Positions 1,588 through 10,658 of a stretch of DNA of 20,149 nt are shown here, piece after piece. The DNA is taken from IMG/VR virus record IMGVR_UViG_3300042349_000560, positions 1 through 20,149 of that record; one strand, given 5' to 3'. Source of the stretch: a virus. Below the pieces are notes generated by a model. That model made no database searches, was not told the origin of the DNA, and worked only from the letters and a program-made list of their open reading frames with translations. The position numbers and the translations under genes were made by a program. Each line of letters opens with the position of its first letter. Within the stretch, counting starts at the first letter, position 1.

Positions 1588-2742
1588 ATGCGAAACGCGA
1601 AAACAAACCGTCACCAGAATCTGCGACGGCTTTACGAGGCTTCGATCCGGGACCAGAACGTCGAACGCTTCATGGAGGACTTTCGACAGGCGCTTGAACA
1701 AGATCGAGCAAGCCTTGGGGATCGATACTCGGTCCGCGAGCTTTTCGAGCAATTTGTTCCCGATGGTCGCGAGGCGGTAGCAATGCTTGCGCCAACGACT
1801 TCGGGGGGATTCCAAATCCTGGAATCTGCGGAACTGGTCGACACTTCTCAGTTTGCGAACATCCTCGGACAGATCACCTACACGGCGACCCTGAACGGGT
1901 ACAACGCACCGGAGTACATCGGGGACCAACTGGTCGAAACGATTCCGACCGTGTTCTCCGGTGAACGGATTCCGGGTGTGGGGCGGCTCGGCGATGACGT
2001 TGATATCGTTGCTGAGGGCGGGGAATACCCGAACGCAGTTTTCGGTGAAGAGTTCGTCGACACGCCTGAAACAATCAAGCGTGGTCTGATCCTCAATGTC
2101 ACCCGCGAAGCGATCTTCTTCGACCGTACCGGGGTACTCATGAGCGAGTGCGGTAAGACTGGCGAGCGAGTTCGCGTGAGCAAGGAAAAGCGGATCTTCG
2201 ATGTGGTCTGCGGGATCGCAACGATCTATCGCCGGAACGGTGCGGCTGCGGTTGCAACATACCAGAGCGAAAACACGGTTTCGAACACTCTTGCTGACTT
2301 CACCTCGATTGATACGGTCGAACAGAAGTTCAACACGATGAGCGACCCGATCACTGGCGAACCGATTTCGATCGAGCTCGATACGATCTTGGTCCCCAAG
2401 GCCCTGAGCAACTTGGCAGGCCGGATCATGGCAGCAAGCCAAACTCGAAGCGGAACGAACAGCGGGAACACACAAACGTATGTTCCTGGAAACTCGGTCA
2501 ACGTGAACGCCAGGGTTTTGACAAGCCCCTACGTTCGCCAGAAAACGACCAACGACACGACTTGGTTTGCCGGTCGACCTCGTGAAGCTTTCGTCTACAT
2601 GCAAAACTGGCCGTTGACAGTGACCCAAGCCGGAGAGAATTCCGAAGTCGGATTCACCCGTGACATTGTCGTGCGGTACAAGACCTCCGAGCGTGGCGCG
2701 GCAGGCGTTCGCGACAGACTCAAGATGTGCCGATGCACTTAA
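1588..2742 (+). CDS. Major capsid protein (HK97-like fold)
   Basis: The 384-residue product has the length and layout of HK97-fold major capsid proteins. The N-terminus is a charged helical stretch (residues about 1-60, with EDFRQALEQDR), like an N-arm or delta region. An ILESAELVDTSQFANILGQ segment follows, then a beta-rich E-loop-like part (GERIPGVGRLGDDVDIVAEGG). A central domain contains VTREAIFFDRTGVLMSECG. The C-terminal part has the A-domain-like ELDTILVPKALSNLAGRI and ends in RDIVVRYKTSERGA, as is common near the end of these proteins. It has its own 5' gap and is followed by a strong terminator, as expected for the most abundant virion protein. ATG 1588 is preferred over an out-of-frame ATG at 1577 because AAGAGA lies upstream and the frame is long. 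The C-terminus RLKMCRCT carries two cysteines. Confidence 0.85.
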   Translation: MRNAKTNRHQNLRRLYEASIRDQNVERFMEDFRQALEQDRASLGDRYSVRELFEQFVPDGREAVAMLAPTTSGGFQILESAELVDTSQFANILGQITYTATLNGYNAPEYIGDQLVETIPTVFSGERIPGVGRLGDDVDIVAEGGEYPNAVFGEEFVDTPETIKRGLILNVTREAIFFDRTGVLMSECGKTGERVRVSKEKRIFDVVCGIATIYRRNGAAAVATYQSENTVSNTLADFTSIDTVEQKFNTMSDPITGEPISIELDTILVPKALSNLAGRIMAASQTRSGTNSGNTQTYVPGNSVNVNARVLTSPYVRQKTTNDTTWFAGRPREAFVYMQNWPLTVTQAGENSEVGFTRDIVVRYKTSERGAAGVRDRLKMCRCT

Positions 2743-3690: not shown

Positions 3691-4043
3691 TTGCGGTCAA
3701 CGTTCTGTCGGTTACGATTCCAGACACGCAAACCGAAAGCGATGCGATCACGATTCCAGAAGGATGCGTCCTTGCTGCGATCTCGACGAACAGCGACGGC
3801 TTCGACGGTGCGAACGTTGGGTATCAAGTGCAGTTTGACGGAACGAACTGGCTGACTGTAAACCAAGTCGATTCAACGACCCCGCACACAACGGCGCTGG
3901 GTGCTACCAAGTGTTATACCCCGGTCAATACAAACGTGTTCCTTGCTTCGGCTAGAGGGTACAAAGCAAAGCTTCGCCTCAAGGCTGCAACGGCTCAGAC
4001 CGGTGCGATCACGTTCCAACTACACTTCCGAGAGATTCAATAA
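3687..4043 (+). CDS. Small beta-rich protein of unknown function
   Basis: The 118-residue product is not recognised. It is almost all predicted beta strand, with alternating polar and hydrophobic residues (NVLSVTIPDTQTESDAITIP) and a C-terminal TGAITFQLHFREIQ strand. This is typical of small virion structural or decoration proteins. I chose ATG 3687 because it overlaps the previous stop as ATGA and has AGGTG at 3677-3681. A longer version from TTG at 3660 would lie inside the previous gene without a better ribosome site. Its stop TAA overlaps the next ATG (TAATG). Confidence 0.55.
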   Translation: MIAVNVLSVTIPDTQTESDAITIPEGCVLAAISTNSDGFDGANVGYQVQFDGTNWLTVNQVDSTTPHTTALGATKCYTPVNTNVFLASARGYKAKLRLKAATAQTGAITFQLHFREIQ

Positions 4044-4513
4044 TGCAACCGAAGTTTTTTGGCTTTCCTGAGTTCGCAATGGGTATCGCTCTCGGGCTGA
4101 TCCTCGGTCTTTTCATTGGGATTGGTCAATCGAAGCTTGGAAACGTTTCCAAAAATCAGGGCGCTGATCCGACTGACAAGATCGTCGCAGAACTTACCGA
4201 AGCGTATCAGCAAATGCTTTCCGAGCGTAAGGCCAACGCGGAAAAGCAGTCCGATCCTCAAGCGGGTCTTAAACTTGAACCCGCGATCAAAAAAGAGATC
4301 ATCGTTTTTACACTTCCGAATTGTCCACCCTGCAAAACTTGGCTGGAAAATTCGAAACGATTTTGGGATGCCGGCTGGACGGTCGGAGAGTGCGACAGTA
4401 CACAGCATTCCTACAAACAGGCTCCAACGTTTCAAATCTGTGTCGGGGACCGGTGCTATACGTGCGTAGGTTCGCTGTCTTTGGAGTATGCTGAGCAACT
4501 GGCAAGGAGATAG
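4043..4513 (+). CDS. Membrane-anchored thioredoxin-fold protein with CPPC active site
   Basis: The 156-residue product starts with one strong membrane segment (residues about 10-29). A linker and helix follow (about 30-75), then a thioredoxin-like domain from about 84. The strand IIVFTLPNCPPCKTWLENS carries a C94-P-P-C97 active-site motif at the start of a helix. An APTF at 127-130 has the position and context of the thioredoxin cis-proline loop. The following strand QICVGDRCYTCVG adds three more cysteines. The domain is shorter than a full thioredoxin (about 70 residues), closer to glutaredoxin or NrdH size. Topology is not proven: an uncleaved N-terminal anchor could place the domain on either side of the membrane. 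The start overlaps the previous stop (TAATG), and the lipid desaturase begins 5 bases after its stop. It may pass electrons to or regulate that enzyme, or reduce or shuffle virion disulfides. Confidence 0.75.
   Translation: MQPKFFGFPEFAMGIALGLILGLFIGIGQSKLGNVSKNQGADPTDKIVAELTEAYQQMLSERKANAEKQSDPQAGLKLEPAIKKEIIVFTLPNCPPCKTWLENSKRFWDAGWTVGECDSTQHSYKQAPTFQICVGDRCYTCVGSLSLEYAEQLARR
4137..4152. repeat. Perfect palindrome TTGGAAACGTTTCCAA, copy 2
   Basis: This 16-base perfect palindrome lies just after the membrane segment of the thioredoxin-fold gene. The codons GGA AAC GTT TCC AAA read GNVSK, the same residues and phase as copy 1 in an unrelated gene. Confidence 0.8.
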
Positions 4514-4518
4514 ACTCG

Positions 4519-5064
4519 ATGCTTGGATGGCTTGTTTTCATCGTCGGATCTTGGCTGGCTGCTGACTTCATTGCGGGGATTTTCCACTGGTGGGAGGATA
4601 CCTACCTCACACAAAGCGACTCGTTTATCGGGCGGCTGATCGGTGGTCCAAACCAGCTCCACCATGCGGACCAATACGCTTTCCTTAAGGGTTCGTATTG
4701 GGAGCGAAACTACACGACGATCATTCCAAGCCTTGCGGCAATGCTGATCTGTTTAGCTTTCGATCCACTGCGCGACGGATGGCTCACGATGCTGTTTCTG
4801 TCCCAGGCAAATCAGATTCACGCACTCGCGCACAGCAAGGGAAAGAACGGCTGGCTGGTTGTTTGGATGCAACGCCTGTACGTGTTTCAAAGCCCAAAGC
4901 ATCATTCTGTCCATCACCGGAACCCGTTCCATGTTCGGTATTGCGTCATGACGCCGATCCTGAATCCGGTGCTCGATGCTGTTTCGTTTTGGCGAGTCCT
5001 TGAATTTTTCGTGCTGGCGTGTTTTTGGATACCACCGAGGGTAAATCATGCAACTGATGATTGA
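4519..5064 (+). CDS. Integral-membrane lipid desaturase, Kua/TMEM189(PEDS1)/CarF/FAD4 type
   Basis: The 181-residue product carries the histidine motifs of the Lipid_desat family in order: HWWEDT (H23, D27), QLHHADQYAF (H48, H49), NQIHALAH (N98, H101, H105) and PKHHSVHH (H128, H129, H132, H133). YC (141-142), LN..LD and FWR.LE follow, as in human PEDS1 (TMEM189). Family members are di-iron, oxygen-dependent membrane enzymes: PEDS1 and Myxococcus CarF make the vinyl-ether bond of plasmalogens, and plant FAD4 desaturates phosphatidylglycerol acyl chains. Hydrophobic segments lie at about 1-22, 66-82, 88-103 and 160-172. All motif histidines are present, so it looks catalytically intact, but the substrate cannot be read. 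It has the strongest ribosome site in the window (AAGGAGA, 4504-4510). It sits between phage structural genes and overlaps the next gene by 17 bases. Confidence 0.85.
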   Translation: MLGWLVFIVGSWLAADFIAGIFHWWEDTYLTQSDSFIGRLIGGPNQLHHADQYAFLKGSYWERNYTTIIPSLAAMLICLAFDPLRDGWLTMLFLSQANQIHALAHSKGKNGWLVVWMQRLYVFQSPKHHSVHHRNPFHVRYCVMTPILNPVLDAVSFWRVLEFFVLACFWIPPRVNHATDD

Positions 5065-5602
5065 AAAGCTGAACGAAGCCCAGCACGTAAACTTGAGCGA
5101 CCAAGCGGCTGCTGATGCGATCAACCTGCTGATGGTTACGATTCCGGTCAACGTTCCGATCGGTGGGATCATTAAGTATGCTGTCGACAATGGGATTTAC
5201 GGCAAAGTAAATGCCGATGCTTACGATTCAAGCTTACCGAAAGAACAGCGCATAGCAATTTGGAACATCAAGGGTTGGGTCGACAACCCTAGCAATCCTT
5301 CCGAAGTCGCTGACCTTTCGTCGCAAACCGCTTTGACCATGATCGAAGATTTGGTTCAATATGGATACGCGACATTGTTGCAAGCCCAGGAACTCGGAGC
5401 GATGGGATTCAAAACGGTTCGCTGGGTCGACCATCATGGGTATGGTACTCAGTCGGCTCATTCGGTTCGAGTTATTCGCGACATCATGAACGGAGCGACA
5501 GCAAAGCGGGCTGGGTGGACGCAGCAAAACATTGACCGATACAACACGACTGAAGCGGCGATCGATCTTTGGAGAGACGGCGATCCGGACTTGGTGATCT
5601 GA
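5048..5602 (+). CDS. Phage protein of unknown function
   Basis: The 184-residue product has no motif I can name. It appears mostly helical: an N-terminal part with SDQAAADAINLLMVTIPVNV, a central NPSNPSEVADLSSQTALTMI segment and a C-terminal RWVDHHGYGTQSAHSVRVI. The phrasing (residue loss over time, small conserved turns) resembles adaptor proteins seen in virion clusters, but this is an impression. The two adjacent histidines in VDHH do not form a recognisable metal motif with the rest. ATG 5048 has GAGGG at 5037-5041 and overlaps the end of the desaturase gene. Its stop overlaps the next ATG (TGATG). It could belong either to the virion or to the desaturase insertion. Confidence 0.5.
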   Translation: MQLMIEKLNEAQHVNLSDQAAADAINLLMVTIPVNVPIGGIIKYAVDNGIYGKVNADAYDSSLPKEQRIAIWNIKGWVDNPSNPSEVADLSSQTALTMIEDLVQYGYATLLQAQELGAMGFKTVRWVDHHGYGTQSAHSVRVIRDIMNGATAKRAGWTQQNIDRYNTTEAAIDLWRDGDPDLVI

Positions 5603-7843: not shown

Positions 7844-8293
7844 ATGCCAGTCGTCACTACATTCTGTGATTTCTTTGGATGCTCAGGCGGTGGTCCAGCT
7901 CCAAGCCCTGGATCGGGGACCGTGCCGAATCTGCTGTCGGTCGACTATCAAGGCGACTGGCTTTACATCGACGGTATCGAGGATCTGACGTTTGCTTTCG
8001 GGCCGCAACGGTACACGACCCAAACGGCATCGGGAACCGTGGCAAAGGCGAAACGATCGGCTTTGACTGATCGTGAGGTCGCGGTCGCTGCTTCGACTTT
8101 CGGCTATGAGCCGGATGATATGACGTTCGTGGTTTGGGCAGAGACTTTGGTTGACACGACGAATACAATCATCGAGCCGGAACCGGGGGACAAGTTCACC
8201 GCGTTTGATTTCGACTGGATCATCAAGAGCAAAAAACGCAACGCTGATCTTTCTCAGTGGCGATGCACGGTACGAAAGAGCACGAAGGAATGA
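7844..8293 (+). CDS. Probable neck protein (head closure/stopper by position)
   Basis: The 149-residue product starts with a short CDFFGCSGGGPAPSPGSG leader: two cysteines and a proline-glycine linker. A beta-rich domain of about 120 residues follows (DYQGDWLYIDGIEDLTFAFG, then GDKFTAFDFDWIIKSKKRN). It immediately precedes the tail-completion and tail-terminator genes, where siphophages usually encode the head-closure protein, and a small beta-barrel would fit. No sequence motif proves it. ATG 7844 follows the fibre stop by 2 bases and has AAGGT at 7833-7837. Its stop overlaps the next start (ATGA). Confidence 0.45.
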   Translation: MPVVTTFCDFFGCSGGGPAPSPGSGTVPNLLSVDYQGDWLYIDGIEDLTFAFGPQRYTTQTASGTVAKAKRSALTDREVAVAASTFGYEPDDMTFVVWAETLVDTTNTIIEPEPGDKFTAFDFDWIIKSKKRNADLSQWRCTVRKSTKE

Positions 8294-8754
8294 AAGACAT
8301 ATCGATCGAACTTCTGGTCGATGACGTTCAGCAAACGATCGGTCAATTGCAGTCTTTCGACTTCAAGCCGGTCTTTGCGTCGGTGCTTAATGTTTTGCAC
8401 TCGGGATTCGAATCGAACTTTGATCAGACCCGAGCACCCTATGGGACTTGGCCTCCGCACTCTCCGAAGACGATTGCTCTGTACGGTCCGCACCCTCTAT
8501 TGATTTTGACCGGGGCGATGAAAGCCGCTGTCACTCAATCGGGATCCGCTGACCGAATAGAAGAGATCACGCAAACCGAAGCAATAATTGGAACGTCGCT
8601 TTTTTATGCACCGTATCAACAGTACGGAACTTCTGGACCGAACCCGATTCCTGCAAGGCCGTTCTTGTGGCTTGCGGGTGATTACGTCGACCAACTACAC
8701 GAAAGATTCGCTGATGAAGTCGCAAGCAAATTACTCGGAATTACAACTACCTGA
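8290..8754 (+). CDS. Tail completion / virion morphogenesis protein (gp10- or Mu gpG-like)
   Basis: The 154-residue product has the ordered landmarks of this family. An N-terminal helical part is followed by FESNFDQTRAPYGTWPPHSP. A DPHPLLILTG-type turn (here GPHPLLILTGAM) comes next, then IIGTSLFYAPYQQYGT, and IPARPFLWL near the C-terminus. Proteins with these landmarks act at the head-tail interface during tail completion. Length and gene position, just before the tail terminator, agree. I chose ATG 8290 because it overlaps the previous stop as ATGA and has GAAGGA at 8284-8289. An upstream in-frame ATG at 8257 has no such support. Confidence 0.75.
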   Translation: MKDISIELLVDDVQQTIGQLQSFDFKPVFASVLNVLHSGFESNFDQTRAPYGTWPPHSPKTIALYGPHPLLILTGAMKAAVTQSGSADRIEEITQTEAIIGTSLFYAPYQQYGTSGPNPIPARPFLWLAGDYVDQLHERFADEVASKLLGITTT

Positions 8755-9776: not shown

Positions 9777-10658
9777 ATGTCGCAAGCAACTGCAAGCCGT
9801 CTGATCGTTCACGATAACCTTACCTGGGGCAGCGGGATCGGAGTAGCGTTCAACGAATGCTCCCTGGTCGGTCAGCGAACGAACCTCATGCACCAAGGCC
9901 ACCGAGGAACACGGCAGCGAGCTAGTTGTCGATCTCGGACGGTGACGGACAAATGCGGGGGAAATATCTCCGGGAACTTCGGCGTGCAGGAAATCGACTG
10001 GTTTCTGACTCGGGCGATCGGTCACGTTGGAGCATCGCCTTACATTCCTGCTGAGACGATCCTTCCGTGGAATGCCTTGCTTGACAAGGTGGCTGGAATT
10101 TTTATCTACAACAAGCTGCGCATCACTTCGCTTGAAATCTCAGGCCAGGAATCGCAGTATCTCAACTGGAACGTGGCCTGTGTCGGAGAGCTCGAAGAAG
10201 TCTTTGGATCAACGTACCCAACGACACCGGTCCCTGAGTGCGGGACTGCATTCACCTTTGCCGACTGCACGCTGACCTACGGTGGAACGGCTTACAAAAT
10301 GCAGTCGTTCCGGCTGCTGATCGACAACATGCTCGATCCGAACCAATACGAAAACTCGCTGACTCCAACACGTTTTGAGTCGCAAGATTTTGGCGTTCAG
10401 CTTTCGGTTCAGACAGCGTACCGTTCTGATACGAGTGCGCTCTACGATGCGGCTTTGGCCGGTGCTGAGGCATCGTTAGCAGTGACCGATGGTACGACTA
10501 CCTATTCGTTCAACTTCGGGAATCTCAAGTACATGGCCGGTGGGCCGACCGTTCCGGGCCGAGGCCGGATCAATCAACCGCTGACGTTCGAGGCTGCTCG
10601 AAAAACAAACACCGGTACCGCGACCGGTGACAACCAATTGCATATCGTTAAGTCATAG
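9777..10658 (+). CDS. Major tail (tube) protein
   Basis: The 293-residue product starts with LIVHDNLTWGSGIGVAFNEC. A strand and helix region follows with CGGNISGNFGVQEIDWFLTR, then DKVAGIFIYNKLRITSLEISG. The second half is beta-rich (GTAYKMQSFRLLIDNMLDP). Tail tube proteins of siphophages have this strand-rich layout and this position, between the terminator and the tail assembly chaperones. It stands alone between two non-coding gaps and is followed by a terminator, consistent with high expression. Six cysteines (at about residues 28, 51, 60, 150, 170 and 178) are unusual for a tube protein. The ribosome site before ATG 9777 is weak (GGGAAA only). Confidence 0.75.
   Translation: MSQATASRLIVHDNLTWGSGIGVAFNECSLVGQRTNLMHQGHRGTRQRASCRSRTVTDKCGGNISGNFGVQEIDWFLTRAIGHVGASPYIPAETILPWNALLDKVAGIFIYNKLRITSLEISGQESQYLNWNVACVGELEEVFGSTYPTTPVPECGTAFTFADCTLTYGGTAYKMQSFRLLIDNMLDPNQYENSLTPTRFESQDFGVQLSVQTAYRSDTSALYDAALAGAEASLAVTDGTTTYSFNFGNLKYMAGGPTVPGRGRINQPLTFEAARKTNTGTATGDNQLHIVKS

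Follow-up and report, generated by a model that had tools for sequence, protein, structure and literature searches.

Do phages carry their own enzymes of the Lipid_desat superfamily, and what would such an enzyme do for them? The question is raised by a gene in a virus record of 20,149 bases, the whole of which was analyzed and is called the window here. A sequence-only reading had taken this gene for a phage-borne membrane lipid desaturase of the PEDS1/CarF/FAD4 family. The open reading frame is present as described there, and the features that bear on the question are collected in Table 1.

Table 1. Positions of the candidate desaturase gene, its signals and its neighbors in the window
Feature	Coordinates	Strand	Basis or remark
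Major capsid protein (context)	1588..2742	+	PF25209, 67 bits; phrog_133
Membrane-anchored thioredoxin-fold protein, 156 aa, candidate redox partner	4043..4513	+	AF2 domain, fold matches, adjacency
Shine-Dalgarno AAGGAG	4504..4509	+	9 nt before desaturase ATG
Predicted Lipid_desat (PF10520) membrane desaturase, 181 aa	4519..5064	+	ATG start; PF10520, invariant ligands, AF2, dN/dS
Codon Asn45, phage-clade signature	4651..4653	+	aligned with PEDS1 Phe118
Codon Gly58	4690..4692	+	aligned with PEDS1/CarF-specific His131
Conserved 184-aa ORF	5048..5602	+	start overlaps desaturase stop by 17 nt
Tail completion/Neck1 protein (context)	8257..8754	+	phrog_26, 68.9 bits
Tail tube protein (context)	9777..10658	+	PF18906, 66.1 bits; phrog_290

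A Pfam profile search, set beforehand as the check on family membership, matched the protein to PF10520 (Lipid_desat) at 119.9 bits, where the cut-off is 26.4 (E 1.6e-34), so the outcome that would have overturned the assignment, no match, did not occur. The match spans residues 12 to 174 of the protein and positions 1 to 173 of the 175 in the profile. The histidine motifs occur in the order given by the sequence-only reading (HWWEDT at 23-28, HH at 48-49, NQIHALAH at 98-105, and HHSVHH at 128-133), followed by YC (141-142), LN (148-149), and FWRVLE (157-162), and three hydrophobic stretches are predicted; membrane segments had been noted before.

All eight iron-ligand histidines (23, 48, 49, 101, 105, 129, 132, and 133) are present together with Asp27. 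By spacing, they correspond to H96, H121/H122, H187, H191, H215, and H218/H219 of mouse PEDS1, with D100 equivalent to D27; the eight histidines and D100 are essential in the mouse enzyme (PMC8960569). In an alignment of 87 sequences, with invariance judged on those covering the positions, the eight histidines and the aspartate are kept in every sequence except one (L004:10001-10543), which is 92% identical and otherwise intact but carries Asn where the others keep the essential His129 and is possibly an inactive natural variant. Comparison with nine relatives gave dN/dS values of 0.04 to 0.16, indicative of strong purifying selection; given these values and the near-invariance of the histidines and the aspartate, the open reading frame is real, far beyond chance.

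An AlphaFold2 model of the protein is all-helical and confident (pLDDT 90, pTM 0.86). It matches the Lipid_desat protein A0A3G5A308 of Harvfovirus in BFVD (E 4.9e-5, TMq 0.66), and the PDB yielded no match by sequence or fold that would provide a solved structure for the family. Judged by its sequence, the gene specifies a PF10520 protein, carried by a phage, whose predicted di-iron site is intact.

The surroundings of the gene are those of a phage. Capsid, Neck1, and tail tube genes lie around it, as expected from its earlier placement in a virion gene block, and this position within a virus contig indicates that it is not chimeric. The gene is phage-encoded and conserved in phages (virion neighbors, at least 125 viral relatives), which fits the genomic side of the definition of a phage auxiliary metabolic gene. 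Its codon usage is in line with the other genes of the window (z 0.11), and a recent acquisition, judged by codon usage, is thereby ruled out. The ribosome-binding site had been called the strongest in the window; AAGGAG is indeed among the longest matches, but two others also reach six letters. We found no excess over shuffled sequences of promoters or terminators that would belong to the gene in the manner of a classic moron. Reading frames of the desaturase and its neighbors overlap or nearly overlap, and the 17-nt overlap with the downstream ORF recurs in four related loci (L005, L008, L013, and L014); searches of Pfam and NCBIfam with this ORF gave zero matches.

Relatives of the desaturase are numerous in environmental viruses. 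A single-protein scan recovered 16 viral relatives; 15 of these are nearly complete in length and 58 to 94% identical. An alignment scan confirmed at least 125 stretches of IMG/VR viral contigs with relatives, of which the best 80 were kept; an extra seed brought in more distant relatives. Two of 50,697 annotated phage records hold a relative. The cultured Erythrobacter phage vB_EliS-L02 encodes one at 38% identity, annotated as hypothetical, with PhoH on one side and portal on the other. The second, at 26% identity, comes from an uncultured phage of 595 kb (L019, LR756511.1, about position 54,600). PHROGs has no family for the desaturase. PF10520 scored above its cut-off in 2 of 395 Bacteroidota genomes and 16 of 198 Spirochaetota genomes, a genome-collection alignment scan with narrow patterns confirmed three loci, and no homologue was found on plasmids.

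In the tree, 60 of the 61 viral sequences fall into one clade that has two chromosomal genes from Bacteroidota at its base; these 62 rows have a support of 98/95, and the spirochaete CarF-type sequences stand apart from the viral clade. Deep placement in this tree is tentative because branches are long and cellular sampling is limited: it comprised two phyla and one narrow genome scan. The copy of the 595-kb phage falls outside the viral clade and carries His at the PEDS1-specific position, so it may be an independent acquisition.

The gene moves between phages. The window desaturase is 88 to 91% identical to the copies in L005, L009, and L010, which share just 0 to 2 of the 23 other window ORFs and are otherwise nearly unrelated, while L025 shares 16 window ORFs at a mean identity of 64% and has a desaturase of 58% identity. 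The desaturase gene is thus kept and passed on between unrelated phages. Among relatives of the window capsid, one variable site is occupied by both the thioredoxin-fold gene and the desaturase, by the thioredoxin-fold gene without the desaturase, or by a subtilase together with other genes.

Few clues to the host emerged. The capsid of the window has no match among annotated phages, and its portal-region match is short and uninformative in this respect. Two unrelated desaturase phages (L088:2419-2841 and L042:3107-3502) encode small secreted proteins that share a GVGF/GVGM...AI..CC pattern, a possible host hint; these two proteins, which had raised a suspicion of Planctomycetota, had no match on plasmids. 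Another contig from this virus group, 60 kb long (G003), carries a gene cluster at L090:7790-9869 for GTP cyclohydrolase I (241 bits), a QueD-like member of the 6-pyruvoyl tetrahydropterin synthase family, a radical-SAM (QueE-like) protein, and a Vut_1-like transporter; the cluster probably serves 7-deazaguanine DNA modification.

The gene immediately upstream, which ends 6 nt before the desaturase, encodes a protein with a transmembrane helix at about residues 10 to 26, a CPPC motif at 94 to 97, and a predicted cis-Pro128. AlphaFold2 predicted its C-terminal domain (83 to 156) with confidence, and the top PDB fold matches of this domain are, with few exceptions, thioredoxins or constructs that carry a thioredoxin tag; taken alone, the sequence match is weak (phrog_22, E 0.0098). 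Across 22 relatives, C97, W100, F130, and the predicted cis-Pro128 do not vary. Among loci of the desaturase clade whose identity is about 46% or higher, 31 have enough flanking sequence; in 28 of these, unrelated phage backbones included, a thioredoxin-fold gene lies within 400 bases of the desaturase, in varying order. The most distant phage desaturase relatives have no such neighbor.

An exclusive pairing is ruled out by the seven loci that have the thioredoxin gene without a desaturase (L134 to L139 and L143). Together with three thioredoxin-fold relatives that lack the first active-site Cys (L005, L007, and L014), these loci indicate that a partnership would not be obligate. PMC12456178, citing Horn 2020, reports that peroxiredoxin Q (PRXQ) enhances FAD4 activity, which makes a redox partnership plausible. 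By analogy, the thioredoxin-fold protein plausibly supports the desaturase as a redox partner in the subgroup to which the window belongs.

Two positions set the phage proteins apart within the superfamily. Phe118 is fully conserved between PEDS1 and FAD4, and the F118A variant retains 6% activity (PMC8960569); the equivalent residue is Asn in 84 of the 87 aligned sequences. His131 (H113 in CarF) is specific to PEDS1/CarF (PMC8960569, PMC9131029), and H131A leaves PEDS1 inactive or strongly reduced (PMC8960569). Its equivalent is Gly in 79 of the 87. The CarF-type spirochaete sequences L021 and L022 have Phe and His at the respective positions. On these sequence grounds, and as sampled against two cellular phyla and one narrow genome scan, the desaturase is best called a member of a third, phage-dominated Lipid_desat subfamily.

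We infer the following course of events. The protein would be a Lipid_desat oxidoreductase with an active di-iron center, embedded in the membrane and part of a subfamily that is dominated by phages and separate from both CarF/PEDS1 and FAD4. As one of the genes in the virion block, it would presumably be expressed late in infection. With O2 and electrons drawn from the host, the enzyme would form a double bond in a glycerolipid of the existing host membrane, and in the window's subgroup the thioredoxin-fold protein would support it as peroxiredoxin Q supports FAD4. The phage might benefit through membrane properties at assembly or lysis, or through oxidative stress; the effects on lysis, superinfection, or oxidative stress that the sequence-only reading had suggested are conjectural. 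Taken jointly, we consider this reading moderately probable. Since phages carry their own version of a lipid enzyme, many environmental phages probably alter host membrane lipids during infection.

A bolder and less likely possibility is that phages have evolved a third functional class of Lipid_desat enzymes that performs a lipid modification other than those of CarF/PEDS1 and FAD4, has a membrane-tethered thioredoxin-fold partner in one lineage, and prepares the host envelope for assembly or lysis.

Genes found near the pair in several phages raise the idea of a cassette in which lipid change, thioredoxin, small membrane proteins, and protease would act jointly on the envelope at phage exit. 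A subtilase-like gene is near the desaturase in L005 and L017 (PF00082, 163.5 bits in L005), a papain-like or similar gene is nearby in L010, L015, L016, L023, L024, and L028 (PF00112, 22.2 bits in L024), and small ORFs with transmembrane segments and coiled coils occur there as well. In L131 and L132, which have a backbone like that of the window, a subtilase directly follows the gene that, in the window, lies ahead of the thioredoxin/desaturase pair. These proteases and small membrane proteins suggest an envelope-exit cassette, but no holin, endolysin, or spanin was recognized by profile, the window has no adjacent protease, and one clade, probably temperate, has the desaturase beside an integrase instead; as an account of the gene, we find a lysis cassette doubtful.

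After the phage-borne subtilase genes (L131:3555-4475 and L005:6944-7870) come a gene whose product is predicted to be secreted and genes for small membrane proteins, and the subtilase of L131 occupies the variable site after the capsid genes. The integrase of the other clade is a tyrosine integrase (PF00589, 39.6 bits) and adjoins the desaturase at L054:10932-11840 and about 17 further loci. A place near the integrase is typical of lysogenic-conversion genes. With an integrase beside the gene, phages of this clade are probably temperate, and the desaturase may serve lysogenic conversion in them.

Rather unlikely, in our assessment, is a FAD4-like acyl desaturase that would act on an acyl chain, close to its carboxyl end, in phosphatidylglycerol or a similar lipid, with the thioredoxin-fold protein as helper. 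The superfamily is the same, His is absent at the position of H131 as it is in FAD4, and the neighboring gene recalls the pairing of FAD4 with PRXQ (PMC12456178). However, the Phe common to PEDS1 and FAD4 (PMC8960569) is Asn in the phage protein, the residue at position 131 is Gly and not the Arg usual in plants (PMC9131029), and PRXQ is a peroxiredoxin, whereas the phage neighbor is a small thioredoxin-like domain.

The enzyme could also be a lipid hydroxylase or another di-iron lipid oxygenase. Related di-iron folds are capable of either desaturation or hydroxylation, and the protein has a match to FA_hydroxylase (PF04116), albeit below threshold (25 bits against a cut-off of 31). The PF10520 score is far higher, and characterized members of that family are desaturases, so that we regard hydroxylation as improbable.

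The sequence-only reading had named PEDS1 and CarF, which form plasmalogen vinyl-ether bonds, alongside FAD4; the PEDS1/CarF part of it is not supported. A true plasmanylethanolamine desaturase making plasmalogens in an ether-lipid host is very unlikely, although CarF is homologous (72.5 bits over 163 residues to the CarF equivalog model NF045946 of NCBIfam) and the catalytic histidines and aspartate are common to both. That score is far below the equivalog cut-off of 500 bits, nearly all of the phage clade has Gly and Asn at the positions of His131 and Phe118, and the desaturase lies outside the CarF-type clade in the tree; we reject orthology with PEDS1/CarF on the strength of both residues, the tree, and the equivalog score. 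Alphaproteobacterial and plant homologues without this His were unable to replace carF (PMC9131029). Among viral contigs, 26 pattern matches to CarF-type proteins were obtained and none was confirmed.

A host gene fused to phage sequence by misassembly is a negligible prospect: the sequence-only reading had named such a join as its possible undoing, but a chimeric contig is ruled out by the identical gene order in independent contigs (L003, L004, and L006, with most genes at 80% identity or more), the codon usage of the desaturase fits the phage, and relatives are present in two deposited phage records.

The gene belongs to a phage subfamily of lipid desaturases that is genuine, conserved, and mobile. 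As a phage function it is new, but its superfamily is a known one, and so is the idea that phages alter host lipids. The earlier statement that no phage example is established holds for PF10520 in the literature searched: a search of the main texts of open papers found none tying PF10520, Lipid_desat, PEDS1, or TMEM189 to phage genes. It does not hold for lipid desaturases of another class, which are established in cyanophages (Roitman 2018, cited in PMC8776855) and polar phages (PMC7300359). The relative next to portal in cultured Erythrobacter phage vB_EliS-L02 makes phage effects on host membranes testable now, and the variation that nature offers at positions 118 and 131 may account for substrate selectivity across the PEDS1/FAD4 superfamily.

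Compared with known systems, the phage protein shares with CarF/PEDS1 (TMEM189) the PF10520 domain, the essential histidines and aspartate, and a membrane location, but it is phage-borne and has 181 aa against the 281 aa of CarF; PEDS1 is the animal plasmalogen-making enzyme, and phages have a distinct variant of this related enzyme. FAD4, the plastid 16:1 delta3-trans phosphatidylglycerol desaturase, is likewise a PF10520 protein without His at 131 and works with a thioredoxin-fold peroxiredoxin, and the phage gene adjoins a gene for a thioredoxin-fold candidate partner, but the phage protein differs in its Asn for the conserved Phe, its Gly for the usual Arg, and a neighbor that is not a peroxiredoxin. 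Harvfovirus A0A3G5A308 is a virus-borne Lipid_desat protein of similar predicted fold, yet it comes from a giant virus and not a phage, at 23% identity. The fatty acid desaturases (vFADs) of cyanophages and polar phages are also phage-encoded and proposed to desaturate host membrane lipids, but they are related to stearoyl-CoA/delta9 desaturases and have a different histidine arrangement; FA_desaturase, the delta9-type class, is absent among the Pfam matches of the window protein up to an E value of 1. The PF10520 proteins add to phages a widespread class of lipid-modifying enzyme, unreported in the main texts searched and distinct from the delta9-type phage desaturases.
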